Positions 7,070-58,327 of a stretch of 64,000 nucleotides of DNA are shown one piece after another. A program made the position numbers and the translations under genes. Source of the stretch: an uncultured cyanobacterium (GTDB lineage Bacteria > Cyanobacteriota > Cyanobacteriia > CACIAM-69d); the NCBI GenBank assembly GCA_937883785.1, contig CALGDE010000144.1, positions 1-64,000 of the forward strand, given 5' to 3'. The first letter of the stretch is position 1. Each line of letters starts with the position of its first letter. Under the pieces are notes generated by a model, which worked only from the letters and a program-made list of their open reading frames with translations, did no database searches and was not told the DNA's origin.

Positions 7070-7456
7070 TCAAGAAATACGGTCCAGAAGCGCTCGCCGC
7101 TTTTCCTCAAATTCCCCTTCCGAAATCAATCCATCCTGACGCAAGGTGTCTAAAGAGCGCAAAGCATCGGCGATCGCGGTTACCTTTTCCGGCTCAATAT
7201 TATCGGCTTTATCCGTGTCCGCAGCCTCCAGTGCCGCATTAAAATTTTGGTCAAACTCGTTGCCGTCTTGGGCTAAATACCAAATCCCTTCAACAGCGCT
7301 CGCCACATGGGGAATGGGAGTCCACGACAGCAGCAGGTAGCACAATCCCCACCAGGACTGCCCCAGATAAAACTTATGCAAACCCGCCACGGGCAGCACG
7401 GTGCCGGCTAAAGCAAGACTGACGGCGATCGTTCTTTTTTTGGGAGGGGTTGCCAT
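7070..7456 (-). CDS. TM2-domain membrane protein with C-terminal SHOCT-like tail
   Basis: A 128-residue protein. Residues 8-60 form a TM2 domain: two transmembrane helices joined by a short loop with the characteristic GLHKFYLGQSWWGLCYLLL. After an acidic linker, the last 30 residues (LRSLDTLRQDGLISEGEFEEK) match the short C-terminal SHOCT oligomerisation motif. TM2 proteins have no assigned reaction. The combination suggests a small membrane-anchored oligomer. The ATG at 7456 is well placed. Its neighbours (a broken Uma2 gene downstream and an opposed DUF1825 gene) give no functional hint. Confidence 0.8.
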   Translation of the reverse strand: MATPPKKRTIAVSLALAGTVLPVAGLHKFYLGQSWWGLCYLLLSWTPIPHVASAVEGIWYLAQDGNEFDQNFNAALEAADTDKADNIEPEKVTAIADALRSLDTLRQDGLISEGEFEEKRRALLDRIS

Positions 7457-8839: not shown

Positions 8840-10747
8840 CTATCCGCCTAGCCGTCGTCGCCAGATAATAATGGCTTGTTTAGCGGCGGGGAAGGCGGCG
8901 GTGCCCTCTGGAATTAATGCTGCCGTTTGTAGCGCTTGCCCAAGCTGACCGCTGCTAGCTCTACTTTCGGCGATGCTCAAAATATTTTGGCTCCACTGAT
9001 CGATGCTGGCTTGGGCACGATAATACTCAGGCTGTCCTGGGCGAATACGCCGCGCCACGCCGATCGCCTGGTTATAGGACGACGCCTGTCCCGGGCGTAG
9101 CAATCGGAACGCCTGCTGTAGCAATAATCGATTCGACTGTTGCTGTTGCTGCTGCTCAGGCCACTGCTGCAACAACCGGCTGCGTTCTCCCTGCAATTCT
9201 TCCACGTCGGTGGGCACCAAATTCAGCGCCCCGATCGCCCCAGCAAAATTCCCCTGGCGCGCTCGACCTTTCGCCAAGTCCAGCATCACCCGCGCCCATC
9301 GCTTAATATCCTGCTGCGCTTGATCATATAAAGGATCACCCTGTCGTACCTTGCGGGCTTCGGCGATCGCCTTACTAAACTCAGACGCTTGGGACAGCTG
9401 CAATGGCATCCGTGCCCGCCCCAGGGTGTCCTGATTGATGGCGGTCAATGCCTGCGATCGCACCTGCTGTGCCGCCTCGCTTTTCTCGCCAGGCACCCGG
9501 TCAATGGTATCCACCGCCTGTCGATAATTCCCTTGCTGGATAGCCTGCTGCGCCTGCTGCACGGCGGCCGCTTCCGCAGCGGCAGGGGCGGGAGCAACCG
9601 CCTCCGACGCGGGCGGGGCACCGTCTTCGGTTGATTCAGTGCCAGGAAAGCTGAGCCCTTGGAATTGCCCCACTAAAGCGCTCCAATTGCGCCACAAAAC
9701 CCCCAGCAGCAGCAACAAAATCAGTGCCCCGATCACCAATGGCAGCCATTTAAACAGCCCAGGAGAATCCGACTCTGGTTCGGGGGCCGTGGTTACCGGT
9801 GCAGCGGCGGGCGGCGGGGGTGGCATAACTGGCGGGGGCGGGGCGATCACCGTTGCGGTGGGCGCAGTGGTGGCAACAGGAATATCCGCGCTGACTTCGG
9901 CAACCCCTGCGGCGTCCTGGGGAGGGAACAGAATGTAGGGAGCAGTGCTGCCATCTGTAGCTCCATCCGGGGAGTGCATTACGTCGTGATACAGGGCATT
10001 GTGCTCTTTCACGATTACCTTCGGCTGCTGTAGTCCCAGCCGATCTTCCTTGCACTGTTGAGCCATCCGGTCCGCCAAACCTCGCTCCAGGCTAAACAGG
10101 TTGGTGCCCATCGGGTCGCTCATGGCCGCCATCAGCCCCGCCATAAATACGCCGGTATGAGTGCTGGGGGAATATTGGGACTGCTGCCCCTGCTGATTGG
10201 CATTAATGGTGGGAATGTCATATTCCCGCGCCAGATCTCGAATATCGTTGCCCACCTCTGATCCGGAGTATCCTTCCCAGGCGTGGTTAATATCCAGCAG
10301 CAACAGCACATTGCCCCGCCCAGCGCGATCGCGAGCCGCCGCCAGTTGGGTATAAATATCCCGCATAGCAATACAGCCAGAGGGGACTCGGTCCGGGCTT
10401 CCCTCGATCGCCATAAAATGATCCTGACCGTTATGGCAAACGCTATAGCCGCTCAGCAGGCACCATAGATAATCTCCGGTTTGCACTAGATTTTGACAAA
10501 CGCGATTGAGCCAAAATTCAATATTTTCTCGGTTGGGATAGGTGGGGCGACCTTGGCACGGGCGGGAATGGTCGCTGAGCTGTAAACATCGCTCTTCCCC
10601 CAGCTCGCTTTTCTCCTTCCACAAATGATGCAGCGCCATGGCGTCCGCTTCCCCCTGGCGCACCGCCGGTAAAAACGGATAGTTGGTAATGCCGATGGCG
10701 ATCGCCCAATGGTTACCCGAAGGAGAAGACTGTCGCTGTGCCACCAT
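8840..10747 (-). CDS. Pseudocaspase: p20 caspase-like domain lacking the His-Cys dyad, with TM segment and helical C-terminus
   Basis: The first 200 residues have the peptidase C14 (orthocaspase) fold: WAIAIGITNYPFLPAVRQGEADAMALH, then the strand carrying the catalytic histidine and the strand carrying the catalytic cysteine. The usual SGHG is SGYS (Tyr at about residue 101) and the usual D-x-C-H is LDINH (Asn at about 154), so both dyad residues are replaced. Tyr/Ser and Tyr/Asn replacements are known in some cyanobacterial caspase homologues. A Pro/Ala-rich linker, a single membrane helix (WLPLVIGALILLLLLGVLW, about 334-352) and a region of repeated Ala/Gln-rich helices follow. It is probably a membrane-bound scaffold, not a protease. 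A GTG at 10765 is an alternative start. Confidence 0.82.
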   Translation of the reverse strand: MVAQRQSSPSGNHWAIAIGITNYPFLPAVRQGEADAMALHHLWKEKSELGEERCLQLSDHSRPCQGRPTYPNRENIEFWLNRVCQNLVQTGDYLWCLLSGYSVCHNGQDHFMAIEGSPDRVPSGCIAMRDIYTQLAAARDRAGRGNVLLLLDINHAWEGYSGSEVGNDIRDLAREYDIPTINANQQGQQSQYSPSTHTGVFMAGLMAAMSDPMGTNLFSLERGLADRMAQQCKEDRLGLQQPKVIVKEHNALYHDVMHSPDGATDGSTAPYILFPPQDAAGVAEVSADIPVATTAPTATVIAPPPPVMPPPPPAAAPVTTAPEPESDSPGLFKWLPLVIGALILLLLLGVLWRNWSALVGQFQGLSFPGTESTEDGAPPASEAVAPAPAAAEAAAVQQAQQAIQQGNYRQAVDTIDRVPGEKSEAAQQVRSQALTAINQDTLGRARMPLQLSQASEFSKAIAEARKVRQGDPLYDQAQQDIKRWARVMLDLAKGRARQGNFAGAIGALNLVPTDVEELQGERSRLLQQWPEQQQQQQSNRLLLQQAFRLLRPGQASSYNQAIGVARRIRPGQPEYYRAQASIDQWSQNILSIAESRASSGQLGQALQTAALIPEGTAAFPAAKQAIIIWRRRLGG

Positions 10748-11431
10748 AATGCCCTTGTAACTCACTAAAAACGGGACGAACCTTCGCCCTGTGTCCTATA
10801 GCCCTTGCATCGAAAGGCGCTGATCCTAAAAGGCTAACTTTCTAGGGCGATTCTAGGCCAAATAAATAACAAAACCGTAAAGCTTAACTACGGACGATAT
10901 GAAAAACCCTTCAACAGGATTTACACAACATCCTGTTGAAGGGCAGTGGCAACCATCCTTCTCGATAGTGAAAAACTTGCTTAATGGCTTCGCTATAGCC
11001 CGAGAAAGGCACTACCCAAATGTTTCCGCAATGCCAACGCTCTAAATTCCAGCATCAAAACCCCAGCAGCAGCAGTACTAGTCCCCCTCGAAACGCGGCA
11101 CTGCTGTGGGTGCAATGTCTTTATTTGAAATTGGCACAATACCAACTTTCTAATTCAGAGAGAGCTCAAGCGCCCATCAAAACTGGACCTTAAAAGCATC
11201 TAACTGTCGCCTTAATTTGAAAAATTGCCAGGAAATAACTATTTTGTAAAAACAGTGTCAATCATTATTCACGATCAACGAACACACTGTGCCAATTCAC
11301 CGTGTGTTGCGAGGGTCACAAAACGGGCTGGAAACGCCAGAAGCAGTACTGCTGGTGATATTGGTGGTGAGTCAGAAGAAGAATAAGCTAGCAGGCTAGG
11401 AGCGATTCCTTACGCCCCCAGCCCTAGTAAT
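10748..11431. other. Intergenic region with minus-strand hairpin/terminator and a possible small transcript
   Basis: No confident gene is seen in this gap of about 680 bases. It holds a terminator-like hairpin for the minus strand (10902-10944). A TTGACA-like hexamer lies on the minus strand (11261-11256) with only a weak -10 about 17 bases on. A 12-bp palindrome AGCAGTACTGCT occurs near 11341-11353. A minus-strand open stretch of about 43 codons ends inside the hairpin (it includes NIWVVPFSGYSEAIKQVF). Either a small RNA or the tail of a decayed gene is possible. Confidence 0.35.
10902..10944 (-). terminator. Rho-independent-type terminator, minus strand
   Basis: Perfect 14-bp inverted repeat CCCTTCAACAGGAT (10908-10921) and ATCCTGTTGAAGGG (10931-10944) with a 9-base loop. 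On the minus strand it is followed directly by TTTTTC. It lies about 490 bases past the argD stop, so it may serve an unannotated minus-strand transcript. Confidence 0.7.
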
Positions 11432-24333: not shown

Positions 24334-24774
24334 GATGCTTCTCTCTCCAGGGTAGGTGGTGGGAAATCTGTATTTCTTTTGACAAAATGTTAACAAGTTT
24401 TGGCCGCGACCATAACGGTCTACGTCATGGCTTTAAAAGATCGATAGTCCGTTGGGCATTCTTAAGACGTTACTTATCGTTCACGTTCGCCAAGATTTTG
24501 CTCAGTTGTTATTACCCTCATAGCTAGGGGTGAACATTGATCTGATTATTTGACCTAATTATCTCGCTTTTCTACCGAATTTTTTCATCGGTTCGTATTT
24601 TTCTAATGCCTTTTTTAGGCGCTATTTTCAAACATTATTTTGAACCTCCTCTAAGGTGCTGTTGTTAGGCGTTTCCGCGCTTTTTCCTATTCCGATTTCC
24701 TTCTTTTCATCTGCTTCCGTAAGTCTTGTTTTTGTAATTTCTTTGTGATGGCGGTGTGACTCTTGGAAAAAACC
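24334..24774. other. Divergent intergenic region rpe / subtilase
   Basis: This stretch of about 440 bases must hold the promoters of both divergent genes. It is T-rich toward the subtilase side. Apart from a short ACCC...GGGT hairpin near 24510-24530, I see no gene or clear regulatory element. Confidence 0.4.
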
Positions 24775-26646
24775 ATGAAGCGATGGCTTGGTTTGACTGG
24801 CGGACTTGTGGCTTTGCCCCTAGTGCTATTGGGGCTGGATGCCGGGGCGCGTCAAGGGAACACGTCAGAGTTTGAAACGGCAGGATTATCGGTGTCCGTC
24901 GGGGGGCGGGCGATCGCCGCTGAAGTAAAGGTGAACACCACGGGACCAAACGGTATCGACGCGCGGCGGCTTCACCAGGATCCCTATGACCTGCTGGGGC
25001 GCAAGGTGGCCTTGGGGCAGGTGGAAATTGGGCGCCCGGGACTGTATGCCTTCGACAAAGGAGTAACGGCACCCAAGCTGTTTTCGCCTACGGGACTGTT
25101 TTTGCTAGATCAGCGGGCTCGCCCTGGGGAATGGGTGGATGGTCATGCCCATGCGGTGGCGGGGGTTATGTTGGCTCGCCACAAGGTGGCAGGGGGGGTG
25201 GCGCCGGCAGCGCGGCTGTATGCCGCAGCGACGGGATTTGGCAGCGGGCGATCGCCCAACGGTCAGGGGCGAGAGTGCCTCGCCAGTCAAACGGTGGCTC
25301 GCCAACAGGAAGACGGGGTGCGAGCCATCAACTTTAGCTTTGGGGAGCCCTTGACCCAGGATCGCCGTATTCGCAATGTGCTCGACGGCAATGCCCTGTT
25401 AACCCTGTGTGTGGACTGGTCGGCGCGGGTCCATGACGTGCTGTACACCATTGCGGGAAACCAAGGGGGAGGCGGTATTTCCATTCCCACGGACACTTTT
25501 AACGGCATTAACATTGCGTCCACGGGGCGATTTCAGGGCAAGTTTTCCAAGGTGGACTATTCTAATTTGGGCAATGTGGTGCGCGGGGTGGGCAGTCGCC
25601 TCGTGGGACGTGAAAGTAATACCAACGGGCGAGGCTCGGTGGGATTAGTGGCGCCAGGGGCGGATGTGGCCCTGCTGCGTCCCGATGGGGGGGTGTTTTA
25701 TTCCAGCGGTACCAGTTTTGCGGCGCCCCATGTGGCGGGGGTAGTGGCCCTGTTGCAGGAGTATGGGGATTCGCGCAATGAGGCAGGGGATTCCCAGTGG
25801 ACCCTAGACAGCCAGCGGCACCAGGTGATGAAGGCGGTGTTGCTGAATAGTGCCGACAAGTTCCAGGATCCGGGCGATGGAAGTTATCTGGGCATGTCGA
25901 AGAATATTTGGACGGAGCAAAAGCGCAGTTGGCTAGAGTCTGATGCCTATGGCAACCGTCGCGAGCCTCTGGATGCCCAGCTTGGCACCGGGCAGCTTAA
26001 TGCGTTTCGGGCTTACCAGCAATTTAAGCCGGGGCAGCGATCGCCCGGTTTGGTGCCGATCATTGGCTGGGATTTTAATCGGGTGGCGTCCCAGGAACCA
26101 CAGCCGGAGGGGTTGGCGGCAGGGCTGTCGGCGATCGCCCAACCCACCCATCCCAGCTCATTGGTATTTCCCCCTGAGGGTGAGGAGGCGGACGGTTTTA
26201 ACGGTGCCCGGGCCTTAGGGGATATGACCCAGCGATCGCGACCGGATCCATTTTCTGGAGCTCCGGCGTTTCGCGACTATGAAATTGAGGCACCGCTTCA
26301 GGGAGGGCATTTCTTCTCAGCCACACTGGCATGGAGTCGCTATGTGGAACTGGTGGATCGCAATGGAAATAAGCAGTTTGACGAAGGGGAAACCTTCGTT
26401 AATCGCGGGTTAAACGATTTGGATTTATTTTTGATGCCGGTGGACGACCCTAGCGCGCCGCGATTTGTGTGCGCCTCCAGCAGCACCGTGGATAGCGTGG
26501 AGCATATCTTCTGTCCGGTGCCGAAAACCGGGCGCTATAAACTGCGGGTGGTGCTACAAGAAACAGAGGTGGGACGAGGCGAATCCTATGGACTAGCCTG
26601 GTGGTCCTCCCCCGCGCCCATTGTTCAAGATACGGAGGGGCGATAA
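24775..26646 (+). CDS. Secreted S8 (subtilisin-like) peptidase with Glu at the catalytic Asp position
   Basis: A 623-residue protein with an N-terminal signal peptide (MKRWLGLTGGLVALPLVLLG). The peptidase S8 core runs to about residue 360: DGHAHAVAGVM carries the catalytic His (about 124), YTIAGNQGG the oxyanion Asn (about 229) and SSGTSFAAPHVAGVVAL the nucleophile Ser (about 314). Where an Asp-Thr/Ser-Gly is expected, the first strand reads VALGQVEIGRPG, giving Glu at about 84. Either a Glu-His-Ser triad or an Asp elsewhere must be used. The last 200 residues form a beta-rich C-terminal domain (GLNDLDLFLMPVDDP). ATG 24775 with a GGA upstream is preferred over TTG 24763. The next gene begins at the base after the stop. 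Confidence 0.82.
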   Translation: MKRWLGLTGGLVALPLVLLGLDAGARQGNTSEFETAGLSVSVGGRAIAAEVKVNTTGPNGIDARRLHQDPYDLLGRKVALGQVEIGRPGLYAFDKGVTAPKLFSPTGLFLLDQRARPGEWVDGHAHAVAGVMLARHKVAGGVAPAARLYAAATGFGSGRSPNGQGRECLASQTVARQQEDGVRAINFSFGEPLTQDRRIRNVLDGNALLTLCVDWSARVHDVLYTIAGNQGGGGISIPTDTFNGINIASTGRFQGKFSKVDYSNLGNVVRGVGSRLVGRESNTNGRGSVGLVAPGADVALLRPDGGVFYSSGTSFAAPHVAGVVALLQEYGDSRNEAGDSQWTLDSQRHQVMKAVLLNSADKFQDPGDGSYLGMSKNIWTEQKRSWLESDAYGNRREPLDAQLGTGQLNAFRAYQQFKPGQRSPGLVPIIGWDFNRVASQEPQPEGLAAGLSAIAQPTHPSSLVFPPEGEEADGFNGARALGDMTQRSRPDPFSGAPAFRDYEIEAPLQGGHFFSATLAWSRYVELVDRNGNKQFDEGETFVNRGLNDLDLFLMPVDDPSAPRFVCASSSTVDSVEHIFCPVPKTGRYKLRVVLQETEVGRGESYGLAWWSSPAPIVQDTEGR

Positions 26647-43305: not shown

Positions 43306-43625
43306 GGTTATTACAAAGATGAAATGGAAGCTAGCAAAGGGATTTGGGAGTTGAGCTTGGGTGCAAATGCAAAATCCGCGAAAAGTATCAGAACTTAAGC
43401 ATCAAAGTTGATGCAGTTGTGAGATTTTCATCACCAAGCTAACCAGGAATAGATTCTACCGGATTCCGCTAAATCCCGCAGGCTGGGTCCATCCCAACGT
43501 TTTCTATGCAGAATCTTCCTAGAGAGGCTGATTGATCTTAGCCAAGAAAAATTGATTGATGGGTGATGCTTATAAAAACAAAACCATGGGTGCCATAGTT
43601 GGGCAGGGCACCGGGGGGAAAATAT
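43306..43625. other. Intergenic region miaB / tRNA-Lys
   Basis: 320 bases with no gene, hairpin or repeat that I can support beyond the miaB promoter side. Confidence 0.4.
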
Positions 43626-43696
43626 GGGTCACCTGGGATTCGAACCCAGAGCCAAGCGGTTAAAAGCCGCGTACTCTACCGTTGAGCTAGTGACCC
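43626..43696 (-). tRNA. tRNA-Lys(UUU)
   Basis: A 71-base cloverleaf: acceptor GGGTCAC/GTGACCC, D-stem GCTC, anticodon loop CTTTTAA with anticodon UUU, and T-arm CTGGGTTCGAATCCCAG. CCA is not encoded. The anticodon stem has a C-U mismatch at its outer base pair (27-43) where related tRNAs have a full pair. Confidence 0.95.
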
Positions 43697-43896
43697 AGAT
43701 GTGGGGAAAGCGCGTGGCTGTCCGAACACCGGATTAGAAAGTAGCATAGCGTTTCGGCACTAAGCAACCCCTAATTTGGTTTGAATAGAATATTTCAATA
43801 CATTACTGCGGCAATATTCCATAGACAGTGGGTTCAGAGGCGGGCTGGGGCGTTTTTCTGCGGCTACGATAAAGGTGGCAGATATCGTTGGGCGAT

Positions 43897-46800
43897 ATGA
43901 CTGAGGAACGCAGAATTGATACTGACGGCGGTGATTACCGTGAGGCGAAGGTTGGCGATCGCGGTCAGTATGCTGAAGGACATATCTACAACTACAACGT
44001 CAATCCTTATAAGCCGGGGATTCCGTTTCAGGTGCCGCCGGTGCCAGGGCATTTTGTGCCCCGCCCCCAGTACGCCGATCGCATTCGCGAGCAGTTGTTA
44101 TGTGATGACGGGGACCAGCCGGGGACGTTGGTGGTGAGTGCTATCCACGGGTTGGGGGGCATTGGAAAATCGGTGTTGGCGGCGGCGATCGCCCATGAGC
44201 CGGCAATTCGTGATCGCTTCCCTGATGGCATTTTGTGGATCACCTTGGGGCAACAGCCGGATTTGTTGGTGGCCCTGGGGGATTGGATTCGGAGTTTGGG
44301 CGATCGCGATTACAAACCCACCACGGTTCAGGCGGCGTCCAGTTATTTGCGATCGCTGCTGGTGGACAAGACCATGTTGCTGGTGGTAGATGACCTGTGG
44401 GATCCGGCCCATTTCGATCCGTTTCGGTTGGCGGGGAAGGGCTGTCGGGTGTTGGTGACTACGCGGCAGGTGCGGCTGAAAAATGCAAAACCCTGTGAGT
44501 TGGGGTTGCTGACGGCGGCGGAGAGTGTGGCGTTGGTGGAGGGTTGCTTGGGACAGGGGTTGGAGCCGTCGGAGCGGGAGATTTTTGAGGAGTTTGCGCG
44601 GGCGGTGGGATTTTTGCCGTTGGCGTTGGAGTTGGCGGCGGTGCAGGTGGAGGATGGCTACGATTGGGCGTCCCTGTTGGCGGATTTTCGGGAGGAGTTC
44701 GATATTCTCGATGTGGATGAGGGGGCGGGGTCCGATGAGGTGCGGCGCGATCGCAGTTTGCGGGCTTGTTTTAATTTGAGTTTGAAGCGGCTGGATGGGG
44801 AGCAGTTGCGGCGGTTTGCGTGGTTGGGGGTGTTGCCGGAGGACGTGTCGGTGGATGCGCGGATGGTGGCGACGTTGTGGGGGATAAAGCCGGTTCGGGC
44901 ACGGAAGGGATTGCTGGAGTTGCGGCGGCGCAGTTTGTTGTTGTCGGCGGTGTCGGTCTCGGTAGGGGGGCGGCAGGAACCCACCTTTCGGCAGCATGAT
45001 TTATTGCACGAGCTGGCGCAGAAGCAGTTGGAGGAGGCGTTGGGGCGATCGGTGGAGGCGGCCCACGGTGAGCTGTTGGCGCGGTATCGACCGGAGTCGG
45101 GGCGTTGGTGGGAGTTGGCGGATGATGGCTATATCCATCGGCGGTTGACTTGGCATATGGAGCGAGCCGGGCAGATTGCGGAGATGCACAAGTTGATTCG
45201 GGCGGCGGATGACAACGGGCGCAATGCTTGGGGGGAGGCGTGCGAGGAGTTGGGGTTATTGACGGTGTTTGTGGAGGATGTGGCGCGGGCTTGGCGCTGT
45301 GCGGAGGAGCGCTATGGAATTATTCCGACGGATGCAGAGGGGTGGCGGTGGCAGTTTTGGTGTGCCTTTGCGATGGGTTCGCTAAATAGTTTGGTGGGAA
45401 ATGTTTCGGGAGAATTGTTGGCGACGGCAGTGCAGCAAAAATATTGGAGTGAGCCGAGAGCTGTAGCTTACGCATTGCAGAAAAGGAAAGAGAAAAAGCG
45501 TGCGAAGGCTCTGGCCGCGTTGATATCGGAGCTGCGGAATCAGGAAACTGTAGAAGCTGTGGTTCTGGCGGCGCGAGCGATGCTGTTATCTAGCAATCGT
45601 GATCGGGTACTTGTTTCCATACTCAAGCATCAGTCCAGCTTTTGGCCGAGCGTGACGGCACAGAAAATAGCTGGTCAGATTTCTAACAAATACGCTCGGG
45701 CCAAAGCACTGAGTCTGTTGAGCGAGAAGCAATCAGCTGATAAATCCTCTGCTAGTGATGAGCAAACATCAGCACTTAATCTTTTGACAGAGAAGGGGGC
45801 GCAGTCATTTGGCGGGGCACTAGAGAAATCGCGTCAGATTGCCGATGAACTTTCTCGCTCCCTAGCTCTAAGCGTTTTCACTGAATCGAGACCGGATTTA
45901 CTTGGAGAAGCACTCGAGGTGACGCTTCAGGTTTCCTCCGGTACTAACCGAGTCTCAGCCTTGAGTGCATTGGCAGAAAACGCGCCAATAGAGCTACTTG
46001 GGGAAGTGCTAGAGATGGCACGCCAGATCCCCTCGGGAACCGACCAGGCTTCATTGCTGAGTACACTAGCTGAGAGGCTACCACCGGAATTAGCTGGCGA
46101 AGCACTAGCAATTACACGTCAGATTCCTTCTGGGAATGACCGCATCTCTGTGCTGAGCACTTTGATTGCGAGGCTGCCGTCAGAGTTAATTGGTGAGGGA
46201 TTAGAGGTCATGAACCAGATTCCCCGCGGATCTCGTCGAGTCTCGACAATGAGCGCGTTAGCCAAGCAACTGTCAAACGTAATGTTCGATGAAGCACTAG
46301 CAATTACACGTCAGATTCCTTTTGGACCTATTCGAGCTTCAACATTGATTGCGTTGGCAGAGCAGCAGCCAGAGTTATTTCGCGAGGCGCTAGAGATGGC
46401 ATATCAAATACCTTCCGGACCTCTCCAAGTCTCAACACTGATTGTGTTAGCAGAGAAACAGCCAGAGCTATTTCACGAAGTGATGAAGATGACACGTCAG
46501 ATTCCGGAAAGCTACGGGCGTGCCCGAATTTTAAGTGCATTGTGCGAGAAGTTACCACCTGAATTATTGAGTGAAGCGCTTAAGATGACACATCAGATTG
46601 AGCATGGGTATGACCGGGCTCTGGTCTTAAGTGTGTTGGCCGAGAGGCTACCAACAGAACGACTCGGGGAAGTCCTGGAGATGGCGCGTCAGATTCATTC
46701 TGGCTCCGGTCGGTCGCAAATCTTGCGTGTGTTAGCTGAAAAGCTACCAGCCGAATTGCTTGAGGAAGCGTTAGAGATGGTGCTTCACATTCCCTCTAAA

Positions 46801-47409
46801 TCTGGCAGGGCTCAAGCACTGAACACGCTAGTCAAAAAACTACCGCCTGAATTGCTGAGGAAAATGCTGGAAGCACTGCGTCAGAGTGCTTCTTCCCCCG
46901 ATTTAGTCGCAGTCCTAAGTGTTCTGGCTAAGAGCTTACCGGCTGAGCTATTGGGTGAAGTCCTAGATATGACTCGTCAGATCACTTACGGATATGGCAG
47001 AGCCTCAATCCTTAATGTGCTAGCCAAGAAGCTACCAGCCAACTTGTTAGGCGAAGCTATAGAAATAGCAGACCAAATTCCCTTAGAAGTAGACCAGGCC
47101 TTGGCACTGCAAGGGGTAACCGTGAAATTACCACTAGAGCTAAGGCCAAAAGTCTACGGAATGGTGATCGCTATGTGCGATCCATACCATCAGGCCAGAG
47201 CCCTTGCAGGATTTACCGATCGCACCTCCTGGGAAGCGATCGCCCGAGACCACAACGAAAACCTCCTGCGCCTGCTCTCCACCCGCGAACGGAAACACCT
47301 CATCGAACTGCTCCCAAAACTCCACCCCACCCTCCTCGAACTGGGAGGACAACCCGCCGTCGATGCCGCCCTAGGCGCCATGCGCGACGCCTGCAATCAG
47401 TGGCCATAA
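43897..47409 (+). CDS. NB-ARC STAND ATPase with about fourteen 32-residue helical repeats
   Basis: A 1170-residue protein. It starts at ATG 43897 with a Gly/Asp-rich leader (GGDYREAKVGDRGQYAEGH). The NB-ARC core has P-loop GLGGIGKS (85-92), Walker B LLVVDDLW (161-168), VLVTTR (185-190), GFLPLAL (238-244) and a QHDLL MHD-type motif (366-370). A helical middle part follows. Residues about 638-1085 are some fourteen tandem units with consensus (L)GEALEMARQIPSGxxRA then LSxLAEKLPPEL, likely alpha-helical pairs. No catalytic effector domain is visible. Base composition changes between the ATPase, the repeats and the last 65 residues. A switch protein with a repeat sensor is inferred. Confidence 0.85.
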   Translation: MTEERRIDTDGGDYREAKVGDRGQYAEGHIYNYNVNPYKPGIPFQVPPVPGHFVPRPQYADRIREQLLCDDGDQPGTLVVSAIHGLGGIGKSVLAAAIAHEPAIRDRFPDGILWITLGQQPDLLVALGDWIRSLGDRDYKPTTVQAASSYLRSLLVDKTMLLVVDDLWDPAHFDPFRLAGKGCRVLVTTRQVRLKNAKPCELGLLTAAESVALVEGCLGQGLEPSEREIFEEFARAVGFLPLALELAAVQVEDGYDWASLLADFREEFDILDVDEGAGSDEVRRDRSLRACFNLSLKRLDGEQLRRFAWLGVLPEDVSVDARMVATLWGIKPVRARKGLLELRRRSLLLSAVSVSVGGRQEPTFRQHDLLHELAQKQLEEALGRSVEAAHGELLARYRPESGRWWELADDGYIHRRLTWHMERAGQIAEMHKLIRAADDNGRNAWGEACEELGLLTVFVEDVARAWRCAEERYGIIPTDAEGWRWQFWCAFAMGSLNSLVGNVSGELLATAVQQKYWSEPRAVAYALQKRKEKKRAKALAALISELRNQETVEAVVLAARAMLLSSNRDRVLVSILKHQSSFWPSVTAQKIAGQISNKYARAKALSLLSEKQSADKSSASDEQTSALNLLTEKGAQSFGGALEKSRQIADELSRSLALSVFTESRPDLLGEALEVTLQVSSGTNRVSALSALAENAPIELLGEVLEMARQIPSGTDQASLLSTLAERLPPELAGEALAITRQIPSGNDRISVLSTLIARLPSELIGEGLEVMNQIPRGSRRVSTMSALAKQLSNVMFDEALAITRQIPFGPIRASTLIALAEQQPELFREALEMAYQIPSGPLQVSTLIVLAEKQPELFHEVMKMTRQIPESYGRARILSALCEKLPPELLSEALKMTHQIEHGYDRALVLSVLAERLPTERLGEVLEMARQIHSGSGRSQILRVLAEKLPAELLEEALEMVLHIPSKSGRAQALNTLVKKLPPELLRKMLEALRQSASSPDLVAVLSVLAKSLPAELLGEVLDMTRQITYGYGRASILNVLAKKLPANLLGEAIEIADQIPLEVDQALALQGVTVKLPLELRPKVYGMVIAMCDPYHQARALAGFTDRTSWEAIARDHNENLLRLLSTRERKHLIELLPKLHPTLLELGGQPAVDAALGAMRDACNQWP

Positions 47410-55345: not shown

Positions 55346-58327
55346 GTGCTTCAACGACTGTACCGATCACGATCTCCTATGCCCTTGCGCTGGGTTCTAC
55401 TTCTGTCCTTTATGGCGGAGGTAGTGCTGCTGACGGGTGCTTTGAGCTGGCTATCCATTCGCCACGGAGAGGAAACTGCCGCCAGCACCATCGAAGATTT
55501 GGGGCAGTGGACGGCGATCGTTGTTAAAGAAAAAGTCAAAACCCACTTTGAACAGCCGGAGCTGCTCCTCAAGGTTAACCAAGCCTCCAGCAAAAGCGGT
55601 CAACTGGATTTATCCGTAGCGGGAGCTGCCAATCAACAGCGGTTGCAGCGTCTGTTTTGGGAGCAGGTGCGTCTATCGTCGGCAGCACGAACCATTTATT
55701 ACACCGATACCGATGGCAATTTGCTGCAAGTGGAAAATGGCAGCATACCCACCTTGTCGTTACGCAGCCCAGAAACTGCACCCAACTGGGAAATTTATGC
55801 CTTGGAAGAAAACGGGCAGCGGGGCAAGCGCATTAAACAGGAACCGTTTGATCCGCGCGATCGCGACTGGTATAAAAATACGGTGCAGCGGCAGGACGTG
55901 ACCTGGTCATCGGTGTACCGCTTTCAGGATCCCCCCGTTTTGGGGCTCACGGTGTCAGCGCCCATCTTTACGGCGGACCAGGAGATCCAAGGGGTGTTGT
56001 CGGTGGATTTATCCCTGGAGGAAATTTCCCAGTTTCTACGGGGCTTGAACCTGAACCGGCGGGTCAAAGTGGCGATTATCCAGCGCAACGGTACGGTGGT
56101 GGCCACGTCCGAATCTCAAGCAGCGCCACAGGTGGAGGCAACCTCGGAGGCAGACTTAGGGGCGGCGGTATTGGGCGATCGCCGAAGCAACACTAACCCA
56201 CCACAGTCCAATGTCCCATCGGAAAACGTAAGCGCCCGTGATATATCGCGATCGCCCACGCCCTTGGCGACCGTAGAGGATCCATGGCTCCAGGCGGCGG
56301 GTCAGTGGATTCAAGGATTAAAACCAGATCAAACGGGTGGTGCGGCGACCTTTTCCACGGTGCTATCAGCAGAAAACGGCGAATCCCTACTTGTGCAAAA
56401 GCTACCCCTAGTGAACCAGCGGGGTATGAACTGGCAGCTGGTGGTTATTGCGCCGGAAGCAGATTTTCGCCAGGGCATTAGCGAAACCAATCGGGACACC
56501 GTGCTGTTGACCCTGGGGGCGATCGCCTTAGCGCTCGTCAGCAGCGCCTGGCTCGCCAAACGCCTCGCCCGCCCTATCCAGCAAGTTAGTGAAGCGGCCG
56601 AGGCGATCGCCGGCGGGGACCTAAACGTTAAGGTATCCCCCAGCCGCGTAACGGAAGCCAACACATTGACCCGCGCCTTTAACCGCATGGCGGTGCAGTT
56701 GGTGCATTCCTTTAAAGCGTGGGAAGAGGCGAACCAACACCTGGAAACCACCGTCAGTCGCCGGACGGCGGCGGTACGACAGTCGGAAGAAAAATTCGCG
56801 AAAATGTTTCGCTCCAGCCCCAACCCCATTGTGATTAGCACCTTCGGCGATGGGCGAATCCTGGACGCCAACGACCGCTTCTTTGAAATTTTGCAGTACC
56901 ATCCCCAGGAAGTGGTAGGCAAAACGGCTCAGGATTTAAATCTTTGGCTGTATTGGTCCCAGCGGGAGGCGATCGCCCGAGACCTGGAGCAATATGGGGT
57001 AGTGCACAGCCGAGAAATTGTGTTTCGCAGCCGCTGGGGCGATCACCATACTTTGCTGATTTCGGCAGAGCTGGCCACCCTGGACAATCAGCTTTGTATC
57101 CTATGGTCCGGCAACGATATTACGGAGCAAAAACAAACCGAGGCAGCCCTACGGGAAAAGGAAGAGTATTTGCGGTCCATTCTAGACAGCATTCCCCAGC
57201 ACGTATTTTGGAAAGATGTGGACCTAAACTTCTTGGGCTGTAATCGCAACTGGGCACAGGCGGCGGGTTTGGGCGACCCGGCGGAAGTGATTGGAAAAAC
57301 TGACTATGACCTAATCACCGATAAAAATGCAGCGGCGGATTTTCGTTTACAAGACCGCAATATTATCGACACCGGCGAACCTCTGTGGCATCAGGTTGCC
57401 CCCAAACAAAAGGCAGGTCCCAACGGTGAAACCCGGTGGCTCGACATTAGTAAGGTGCCCATCAAGGGAGACAGCGGCGAAGTAATTGGCTTGCTGGGGG
57501 TCATTGACGACATTACCCTGCGGAAACAGGCGGAGGAAGCCCTCCAGCTAGAAAAAGAGCGCTCCGAGCAGTTGCTGCTGAATATTCTGCCCCAGGCGAT
57601 CGCCACCCAACTGAAGCAGTCGGCGTCCCTGGACAACCCCGCCGCAGAAAACAAACCGATCGCCAGCAATTACGAGTCGGTCAGTATCCTCTTCGCTGAC
57701 ATCGTCGGCTTTACGGGGCTGTCAGCCCAGCTAACCCCCATTGAACTGGTAGATTGGCTGAACCGACTATTTTCCGAATTTGACCGTCTGGCGGAACAGT
57801 ACAATCTGGAAAAAATCAAAACCATCGGCGACGCGTACATGGTGGCGGCGGGGTTGCCTACCCCCATTGATGAACCGGCGGCGGCGATCGCCAATATGGC
57901 CTTAGAAATGCGCGACACCATCGAAACCCTAGAGCCAGAATTTATCGCCAAATTCAATCGCCCCCTAGACATTCGCATCGGCATCAACAGCGGCCCCGTA
58001 ATTGCTGGCGTTATTGGGATCAAGAAATTTATTTATGACCTGTGGGGAGACACCGTAAACATTGCCAGTCGCATGGAGTCCCACGGCGAGCCAGGACAAA
58101 TTCAAGTAACCGAAGCCACTTACCAAGAGATATCAGAACAATTTCACTTTAAATATCGCGGCGAAATCGACGTCAAAGGACGGGGGCAAATGAAAACCTA
58201 TTGGCTTTTAGAGCGGCGATCGCCAGCGTCATTTACGGAACAGCACCCTAGCGGACCCCCATCAACAGCACTTAGTGGGTCAGCCCACCACAGCTCGACA
58301 CCGAACTCCACAACAAACAATATTTAA
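55346..58327 (+). CDS. Class III adenylate cyclase with CACHE, HAMP and two PAS domains
   Basis: A 993-residue sensor enzyme. The N-terminal helix (about 15-38) and a second at about 383-405 enclose a periplasmic CACHE-type domain (DPRDRDWYKNTV, PVLGLTVSAPIF). A HAMP domain, two PAS domains (SPNPIVISTFGDGRILDAND; RSILDSIPQHVFWKDVD) and a cyclase domain follow. The metal Asps are in FADIVGFTG and KTIGDAYMV. The purine-specifying residues look like adenylyl cyclase: Lys in EKIKTIGDAYM and Asp in YDLWGDTVNIASRM. It should make cAMP in response to an external ligand. Start GTG; ATG 55379 is an alternative. Confidence 0.92.
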   Translation: MLQRLYRSRSPMPLRWVLLLSFMAEVVLLTGALSWLSIRHGEETAASTIEDLGQWTAIVVKEKVKTHFEQPELLLKVNQASSKSGQLDLSVAGAANQQRLQRLFWEQVRLSSAARTIYYTDTDGNLLQVENGSIPTLSLRSPETAPNWEIYALEENGQRGKRIKQEPFDPRDRDWYKNTVQRQDVTWSSVYRFQDPPVLGLTVSAPIFTADQEIQGVLSVDLSLEEISQFLRGLNLNRRVKVAIIQRNGTVVATSESQAAPQVEATSEADLGAAVLGDRRSNTNPPQSNVPSENVSARDISRSPTPLATVEDPWLQAAGQWIQGLKPDQTGGAATFSTVLSAENGESLLVQKLPLVNQRGMNWQLVVIAPEADFRQGISETNRDTVLLTLGAIALALVSSAWLAKRLARPIQQVSEAAEAIAGGDLNVKVSPSRVTEANTLTRAFNRMAVQLVHSFKAWEEANQHLETTVSRRTAAVRQSEEKFAKMFRSSPNPIVISTFGDGRILDANDRFFEILQYHPQEVVGKTAQDLNLWLYWSQREAIARDLEQYGVVHSREIVFRSRWGDHHTLLISAELATLDNQLCILWSGNDITEQKQTEAALREKEEYLRSILDSIPQHVFWKDVDLNFLGCNRNWAQAAGLGDPAEVIGKTDYDLITDKNAAADFRLQDRNIIDTGEPLWHQVAPKQKAGPNGETRWLDISKVPIKGDSGEVIGLLGVIDDITLRKQAEEALQLEKERSEQLLLNILPQAIATQLKQSASLDNPAAENKPIASNYESVSILFADIVGFTGLSAQLTPIELVDWLNRLFSEFDRLAEQYNLEKIKTIGDAYMVAAGLPTPIDEPAAAIANMALEMRDTIETLEPEFIAKFNRPLDIRIGINSGPVIAGVIGIKKFIYDLWGDTVNIASRMESHGEPGQIQVTEATYQEISEQFHFKYRGEIDVKGRGQMKTYWLLERRSPASFTEQHPSGPPSTALSGSAHHSSTPNSTTNNI

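Follow-up and report, generated by a model that had tools for sequence, protein, structure and literature searches.

A membrane-anchored pseudo-orthocaspase of the YN clade with a predicted TPR-like solenoid in an uncultured cyanobacterium

We analysed a 64,000-nucleotide stretch of DNA from an uncultured cyanobacterium (hereafter, the window) and found that it encodes a diverged member of the YN clade of pseudo-orthocaspases, a clade described in 2019 by Klemencic et al. (PMC6426788). This identity is secure. The His-Cys (HC) catalytic dyad is absent, with Tyr101 and Asn154 in its place, and the half of the protein that follows the p20 domain can be tied to a membrane helix and a predicted TPR-like alpha-solenoid. 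We put at roughly one in two the probability that this protein acts as a non-catalytic, membrane-spanning binding adaptor.

Results

The gene (Table 1) is better read from its ATG than from the upstream GTG, because the frame of the nearest relative (L005 in genome G001, about 90% identical to the window protein) opens just two codons ahead of the equivalent Met. From its N-terminus, the 635-residue product comprises a p20 domain, a disordered Pro/Ala linker, one transmembrane helix and a predicted TPR-like alpha-solenoid. The original prediction, made from the sequence alone, had proposed a p20 domain, a transmembrane helix and helical repeats, an anatomy that AlphaFold2 and hydropathy bear out; the repeats are present, but extend over about 250 residues, not about 280. 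Promoter and terminator scans around the gene gave nothing beyond chance level.

Table 1. Coordinates of the gene, its domains and key residues in the window
Feature	Position	Strand	Details
Pseudo-orthocaspase gene, YN type	8840..10747	minus	635 aa, ATG start; alternative GTG start at 10765 (open frame 8840-10765)
Pseudo-p20 (caspase fold), residues about 10-250	9998..10720	minus	AlphaFold2; VIA-align to AtMCA4; HMM to MCA2
Pro/Ala-rich linker, residues 251-333	9749..9997	minus	Mostly disordered by prediction; pLDDT <50 at 262-329
Transmembrane helix, residues 334-353	9689..9748	minus	Hydropathy 2.59 at 334; AlphaFold2 helix 335-353
Predicted TPR-like alpha-solenoid, residues 388-634	8846..9586	minus	pLDDT blocks 86-98; profile match to 643-688-aa repeat family
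Solenoid repeat copy 1, residues 438-512	9212..9436	minus	36% identity to copy 2 over 75 residues
Solenoid repeat copy 2, residues 539-613	8909..9133	minus	Pairwise match to copy 1
Asp35, counterpart of MCA2 S1-pocket Asp95	10643..10645	minus	69/69; 48/51 in mixed set; MCA2 alignment
Trp95, preceding the pseudo-catalytic Tyr	10463..10465	minus	69/69; 51/51 family rows; 8/8 DACR-type HC rows
Ser99 of SG[H/Y], pocket serine	10451..10453	minus	69/69
Tyr101 at the catalytic His position	10445..10447	minus	68/69 Tyr, 1 His; aligns with SGHG His of MCA2
Asp152, counterpart of MCA2 S1-pocket Asp211	10292..10294	minus	69/69
Asn154 at the catalytic Cys position	10286..10288	minus	67/69 Asn, 1 Ser, 1 Lys

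The p20 domain was modelled with blocks mostly at pLDDT 84-97 and one at 78. Superposed by VIA-align on the plant metacaspase AtMCA4 (6w8r), the model gives Z 24.1 and an rmsd of 2.4 over 220 residues, and its matches in a viral fold library are caspases of large viruses. The expectation of a well-kept fold was thus sound. A profile of 39 HC domains matches the window protein (E 5.3e-15). The Pfam model PF00656 finds nothing in this protein alone even at E <= 1, and matches 16 of 29 aligned family members at E <= 0.01.

The substitutions noticed at the outset, SGYS for SGHG and LDINH for D-x-C-H, are both seen in the frame at the expected places. Alignment to other C14 proteins confirms the register: T. 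brucei MCA2 is matched (E 1.7e-7) by a profile built from 29 family members, and the Tyr falls opposite the SGHG His, without a shift. The description as a dead caspase with a preserved fold holds, in that the window protein offers neither a His/Cys pair in a shifted register nor a conserved residue suited as nucleophile. The residue following the Asn is Arg in 66 of 69 clade rows and His in three, including the window, and Arg also follows the Cys position in all eight active relatives of the DACR type. Because of this, the His of LDINH is most simply read as a secondary Arg-to-His change, and probably does not correspond to the His of D-x-C-H.

To follow these positions across the family, we used two alignments. 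One scan of genome contigs yielded 231 relatives, 80 of which were kept as loci (L034-L113); the 69-row alignment consists of the window and 68 of these, the 12 omitted loci being mostly near-duplicates. Because relatives had to match the scan pattern D-x-[LVI]-W-[CVF]-F-[FL]-S-G-[YH], its Tyr/His, Trp, Ser and Gly positions are partly selected for in the 69 rows. The mixed set holds 51 family rows, of which 29 were gathered by whole-protein similarity without the scan pattern. In these 51 rows the His position is occupied by Tyr in 47, His in two, Cys in one and Leu in one, and the Cys position by Asn in 43, Ser in five, Lys in two and His in one; the two rows that keep His do so as an H/N pair. 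Within the window's own taxonomic family the pair is Y/H in G002, Y/S in G003, G004 and G005, and Y/N in the same genus. There the Asn position varies (N, S or H), and the Tyr, the Ser, the Gly and the Asp of D-x-N are constant. To judge from these alignments, the dyad substitution is a clade character and no local accident.

The acidic S1 pocket is largely retained (Table 1). Asp35 is missing in three of the 51 family rows, all from the window's taxonomic family. Ser99 aligns with the Ser of SGH in MCA2, which we take to be Ser156. The MCA2 pocket residues are named as Cys92, Asp95, Ser159 and Asp211 in PMC6426788. The counterpart of Cys92 is not retained, being Ala in 67 of 69 rows and Gly in the window, and it is likewise absent in all eight active DACR relatives.

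Both halves of the protein are under purifying selection. Compared with G001, dN/dS is 0.073 for the p20, 0.052 for the solenoid and 0.064 for the linker and transmembrane helix, where synonymous sites are near saturation. The p20 value indicates that its fold is maintained. Of 291 genomes sampled from the class, 230 match the full profile at E <= 1e-10, with paralogues of either half among these matches. At E <= 2.3e-99, a threshold chosen by eye to lie beyond the scores reached by active relatives, 126 genomes remain. Given these 126 genomes and the low dN/dS in both halves, we do not regard the observation as chance. Among the other relatives, median pairwise identity is higher in the p20 (48.7%, 276 pairs) than in the solenoid (38.6%), which speaks against the solenoid as the more constrained half; the window lineage alone is reversed (p20 32.5%, solenoid 39.3%).

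The original prediction had left the C-terminal half unrecognised, which no longer applies. Modelled alone, the region is all helical with a mean pLDDT of 94.0, and it was built by tandem duplication (pairwise E 5e-15 for the two copies in Table 1); relatives with just one repeat exist (L010, L023). Foldseek returns consensus TPRs, designed repeats and BamD as top matches (E 7.5e-4 to 3.4e-3), a generic likeness, and the best fold Z, 10.7, is to designed repeats. Searches of the C-terminal half with Pfam TPR and ARM models stayed below cut-off (TPR_18, 13 bits against a cut-off of 21.9), and single-sequence Pfam and PDB searches and an NCBIfam family scan gave no specific match. Of 29 aligned members, 11 match ARM_TT21 at E <= 0.01. 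A profile comparison with three single-pass proteins of 643-688 aa and the same repeat type aligns 192 columns at E 6.8e-24 and probability 99.6. One such protein is encoded in the window's own genome (L170:1288-3354, contig C45, 688 aa), with a basic N-terminal tail, one transmembrane helix and solenoid-type repeats; the adjoining gene is presumably YrdC/Sua5-like. Proteins of this length class are matched in many sampled genomes. The profile match suggests that the solenoid is common to the YN family and another cyanobacterial single-pass family.

Two genomes, G023 and G197, carry the transmembrane helix and solenoid without a p20. In G023, which is a single contig with a completeness of 100, the gene (L174, G023:C1:3312000-3318000, reading frame from about 3862) encodes 419 aa; about 3.8 kb upstream, read in all frames, contains no p20, and the remainder of that genome has no family p20 either. 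The locus is syntenic, as two neighbours match families c1 and c2 (55% and 75% identity by blast), which occur at 44 and 29 of the 80 YN loci. L174 may have lost the p20 domain naturally, or may represent the state before the fusion. The completeness of G197 is 99. Further candidates in G181, G242, G272, G280 and G286 lie on short contigs or frames and are left uncounted, since contig ends could explain the missing p20.

To place the family we relied on a 74-row tree from which both dyad columns were removed; the bootstrap correlation was 0.989, just short of convergence. Dropped from it for size, gaps or long branches were 23 family rows and L160, L168, L159, L166, L119 and L123, and the full 103-row tree was run in quick mode only. 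The family forms one clade (100/99, ultrafast bootstrap/SH-aLRT), and its sister is a group of eight HC orthocaspases with DACR (node 100/99). The YN family and these active orthocaspases therefore share common ancestry. In the five of the eight that were scanned, the C-terminal domain is FGE-sulfatase in four and GUN4 in one. The step from the active type is small, with Tyr for His, Asn for Cys and an unchanged Arg; what follows the p20 is another C-terminal partner. The YS pseudo-orthocaspase clade (100/99) is placed elsewhere, and YS and YN were never joined in 200 bootstrap trees. Dyad loss in YN was an event separate from that in YS, so the His was lost at least twice. A further His-to-Tyr change outside both clades is seen in L156 (G038) and L157 (G051), orthocaspases with SGYG in which the Cys is kept (Y/C).

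Active orthocaspases do occur elsewhere in the window's genome, where PF00656 has three matches, all HC: L001 is C14 only, with AGHG and DCCHSG, and L002 and L003 combine C14 with nSTAND1 and carry AGHG and DCCFAG. The rest of the 64-kb window holds no second C14 domain, and none was found among 920 non-target ORFs (1001 minus 81 targets) surrounding the 80 related loci and on the window side. We also considered 11 family-bearing genomes, picked for few C14 matches and not at random, so that they give existence and not frequency. An HC orthocaspase is present in seven (G002, G003, G010, G014, G028, G042 and G045). Two have a weak or fragmentary HC candidate only (L168 in G025, E 0.033; L165 in G038, SGHG alone in a frame of 120 aa), and in the other two, G005 and G051, there is no HC C14 at E <= 1. 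In this check, 4 of 34 listed matches came without a readable locus, in genomes already shown to bear HC.

We rejected an operon or guilt-by-association partner, as neighbours vary by lineage and none is common to all loci. The most frequent neighbour, at 44 of 80 loci, is a conserved protein of about 177 aa with a signal-like N-terminus, encoded upstream in divergent orientation; it is absent beside the window gene. Downstream of the window gene is a small TM2 and SHOCT protein (7073-7456, minus strand). Elsewhere in the window, on the plus strand, are a 627-aa protein with a subtilase (S8) domain (24763-26643), a 1173-aa protein with an NB-ARC (STAND NTPase) domain near a tRNA-Lys gene (43888-47406 and 43624-43697, respectively), which is a possible defence or signalling gene, and a 993-aa protein with dCache, HAMP, PAS and adenylate/guanylate cyclase domains (55346-58324).

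Discussion

Our observations support a view of the window protein as a dead scaffold. As an adaptor, its p20 would lie in the cytoplasm, where it would take up the Arg or Lys of a protein or peptide in the old S1 pocket and leave this ligand uncut. The solenoid would bind a partner in the periplasm or thylakoid lumen, and the single helix joining the two would make the protein a receptor, tether or scaffold, not a protease. This orientation is suggested by the lack of a signal peptide ahead of the p20, by a solenoid without Cys in 65 of 69 rows, and by the own-genome relative of the 643-688-aa type, whose tail before the transmembrane helix is strongly basic and, by the positive-inside rule, would leave the repeats of these proteins outside. 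The charges flanking the window helix (one K/R and three D/E before, no K/R and four D/E after) do not settle topology. It is possible, if rather unlikely, that YN proteins are transmembrane receptors in which the extracytoplasmic solenoid, which can also exist as a separate protein, is coupled through the membrane to a captured p20; this p20, catalytically dead but with its pocket intact, would read basic peptides on the cytoplasmic side, in a pathway without active orthocaspases.

Catalysis by another nucleophile or a shifted dyad is very improbable. A Cys occupies column 184 in 60 of 69 rows and a few members keep the His, as noted above. Against this, columns 183 and 184 are Ala and Asn in the window protein, so an alternative nucleophile at that column is ruled out for the window protein; the MCA2 alignment sets Tyr squarely on the His; and His and Cys occur together at the dyad in none of the 51 family rows. 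The original prediction named a scaffold or regulator of active orthocaspases as likely. As a regulator, the pseudo-p20 would dimerise with an HC orthocaspase, recruit it or compete for its substrates, as c-FLIP-L does with caspase-8. Such a partner is available in its own genome, with three HC orthocaspases, and in seven of the 11 family-bearing genomes examined; the S1 pocket is preserved, and c-FLIP-L and T. brucei MCA4 are precedents, as cited in PMC6426788. Counter to this, none of the active genes is linked to the family at the loci surveyed, HC C14 proteins are absent at E <= 1 from two of the 11 genomes and only weak or partial in two more, and the three from the window's genome do not include the DACR type, the closest active one. 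The literature likewise makes the case that pseudo-orthocaspases function apart from active ones, with unicellular species that have the pseudo-variant only (PMC6426788), and lists strains with mutated orthocaspases only (PMC7475262). We therefore consider a regulatory role doubtful.

Alternatively, the membrane-solenoid part may do all the work, the pseudo-p20 being a relic or a solubility or dimerisation domain. The p20-less forms in G023 (syntenic) and G197 argue for this, as does the greater divergence of the p20 in the window lineage. Since some lineages carry the transmembrane-solenoid part without p20, this part can apparently do something alone. A relic would drift, however, and the p20 has a low dN/dS, pocket residues that are invariant in 69 rows, and higher conservation than the solenoid among the other relatives. 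We hold this explanation to be unlikely, and prefer the adaptor, in which both halves bind. More broadly, our results tie an orphan half-protein to a defined fold, show the source of the YN clade and weaken the default view of dead bacterial caspases as regulators of live ones. The natural p20-less versions make the contribution of the dead p20 testable in cyanobacteria.

Named loci from our scan include Microcoleus vaginatus and Tychonema, of genera not known to fix nitrogen. The YN clade, its Trp before the Tyr and its acidic pocket have already been reported, and that report describes YN proteins as having no identifiable C-terminal domain and as occurring in multicellular nitrogen fixers only (PMC6426788). 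The window protein resembles these proteins in its Tyr/Asn dyad, Trp, acidic pocket and want of a recognised C-terminal Pfam domain; it differs in that the C-terminal part is here resolved as a transmembrane helix and solenoid, and in that its taxonomic family varies at the Asn (N, S or H). We found no description of the solenoid or of the FGE/GUN4 sister relation in open-licence papers, and the supplementary trees of PMC6426788 may show the relation.

Closest among active enzymes are the C14+FGE-sulfatase/GUN4 orthocaspases (SGHG or AGHG, DACR), which share a sister p20, the same Trp, Asp109 and the Arg after the Cys position, but have an intact HC dyad and, in the five scanned, FGE-sulfatase or GUN4 in place of the transmembrane helix and solenoid. 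The YS pseudo-orthocaspases likewise have a dead cyanobacterial p20, but form a separate clade that arose by another loss event; a TAT-like N-terminus is reported for them in PMC6426788. A dead p20 is also found in SyOC (sll0148) of Synechocystis 6803, which is absent from our tree; there the dyad is Tyr-Gly and a knock-out raised H2O2 tolerance (PMC7889975). A metacaspase with a C-terminal transmembrane helix is the commonest cyanobacteria-specific architecture (Asplund-Samuelsson 2012, PMC3501461). As here, a p20 predicted to be intracellular is followed by one transmembrane helix; unlike here, the accessible text of that paper makes no mention of a C-terminal solenoid. Transmembrane helices after C14 are also described in PMC8283722, where pseudo-variants make up 37 of 67 orthocaspases with such a helix. 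To the known YN clade we add its sister relation to the DACR type, a dyad loss independent of the YS clade, the solenoid and the p20-less forms.
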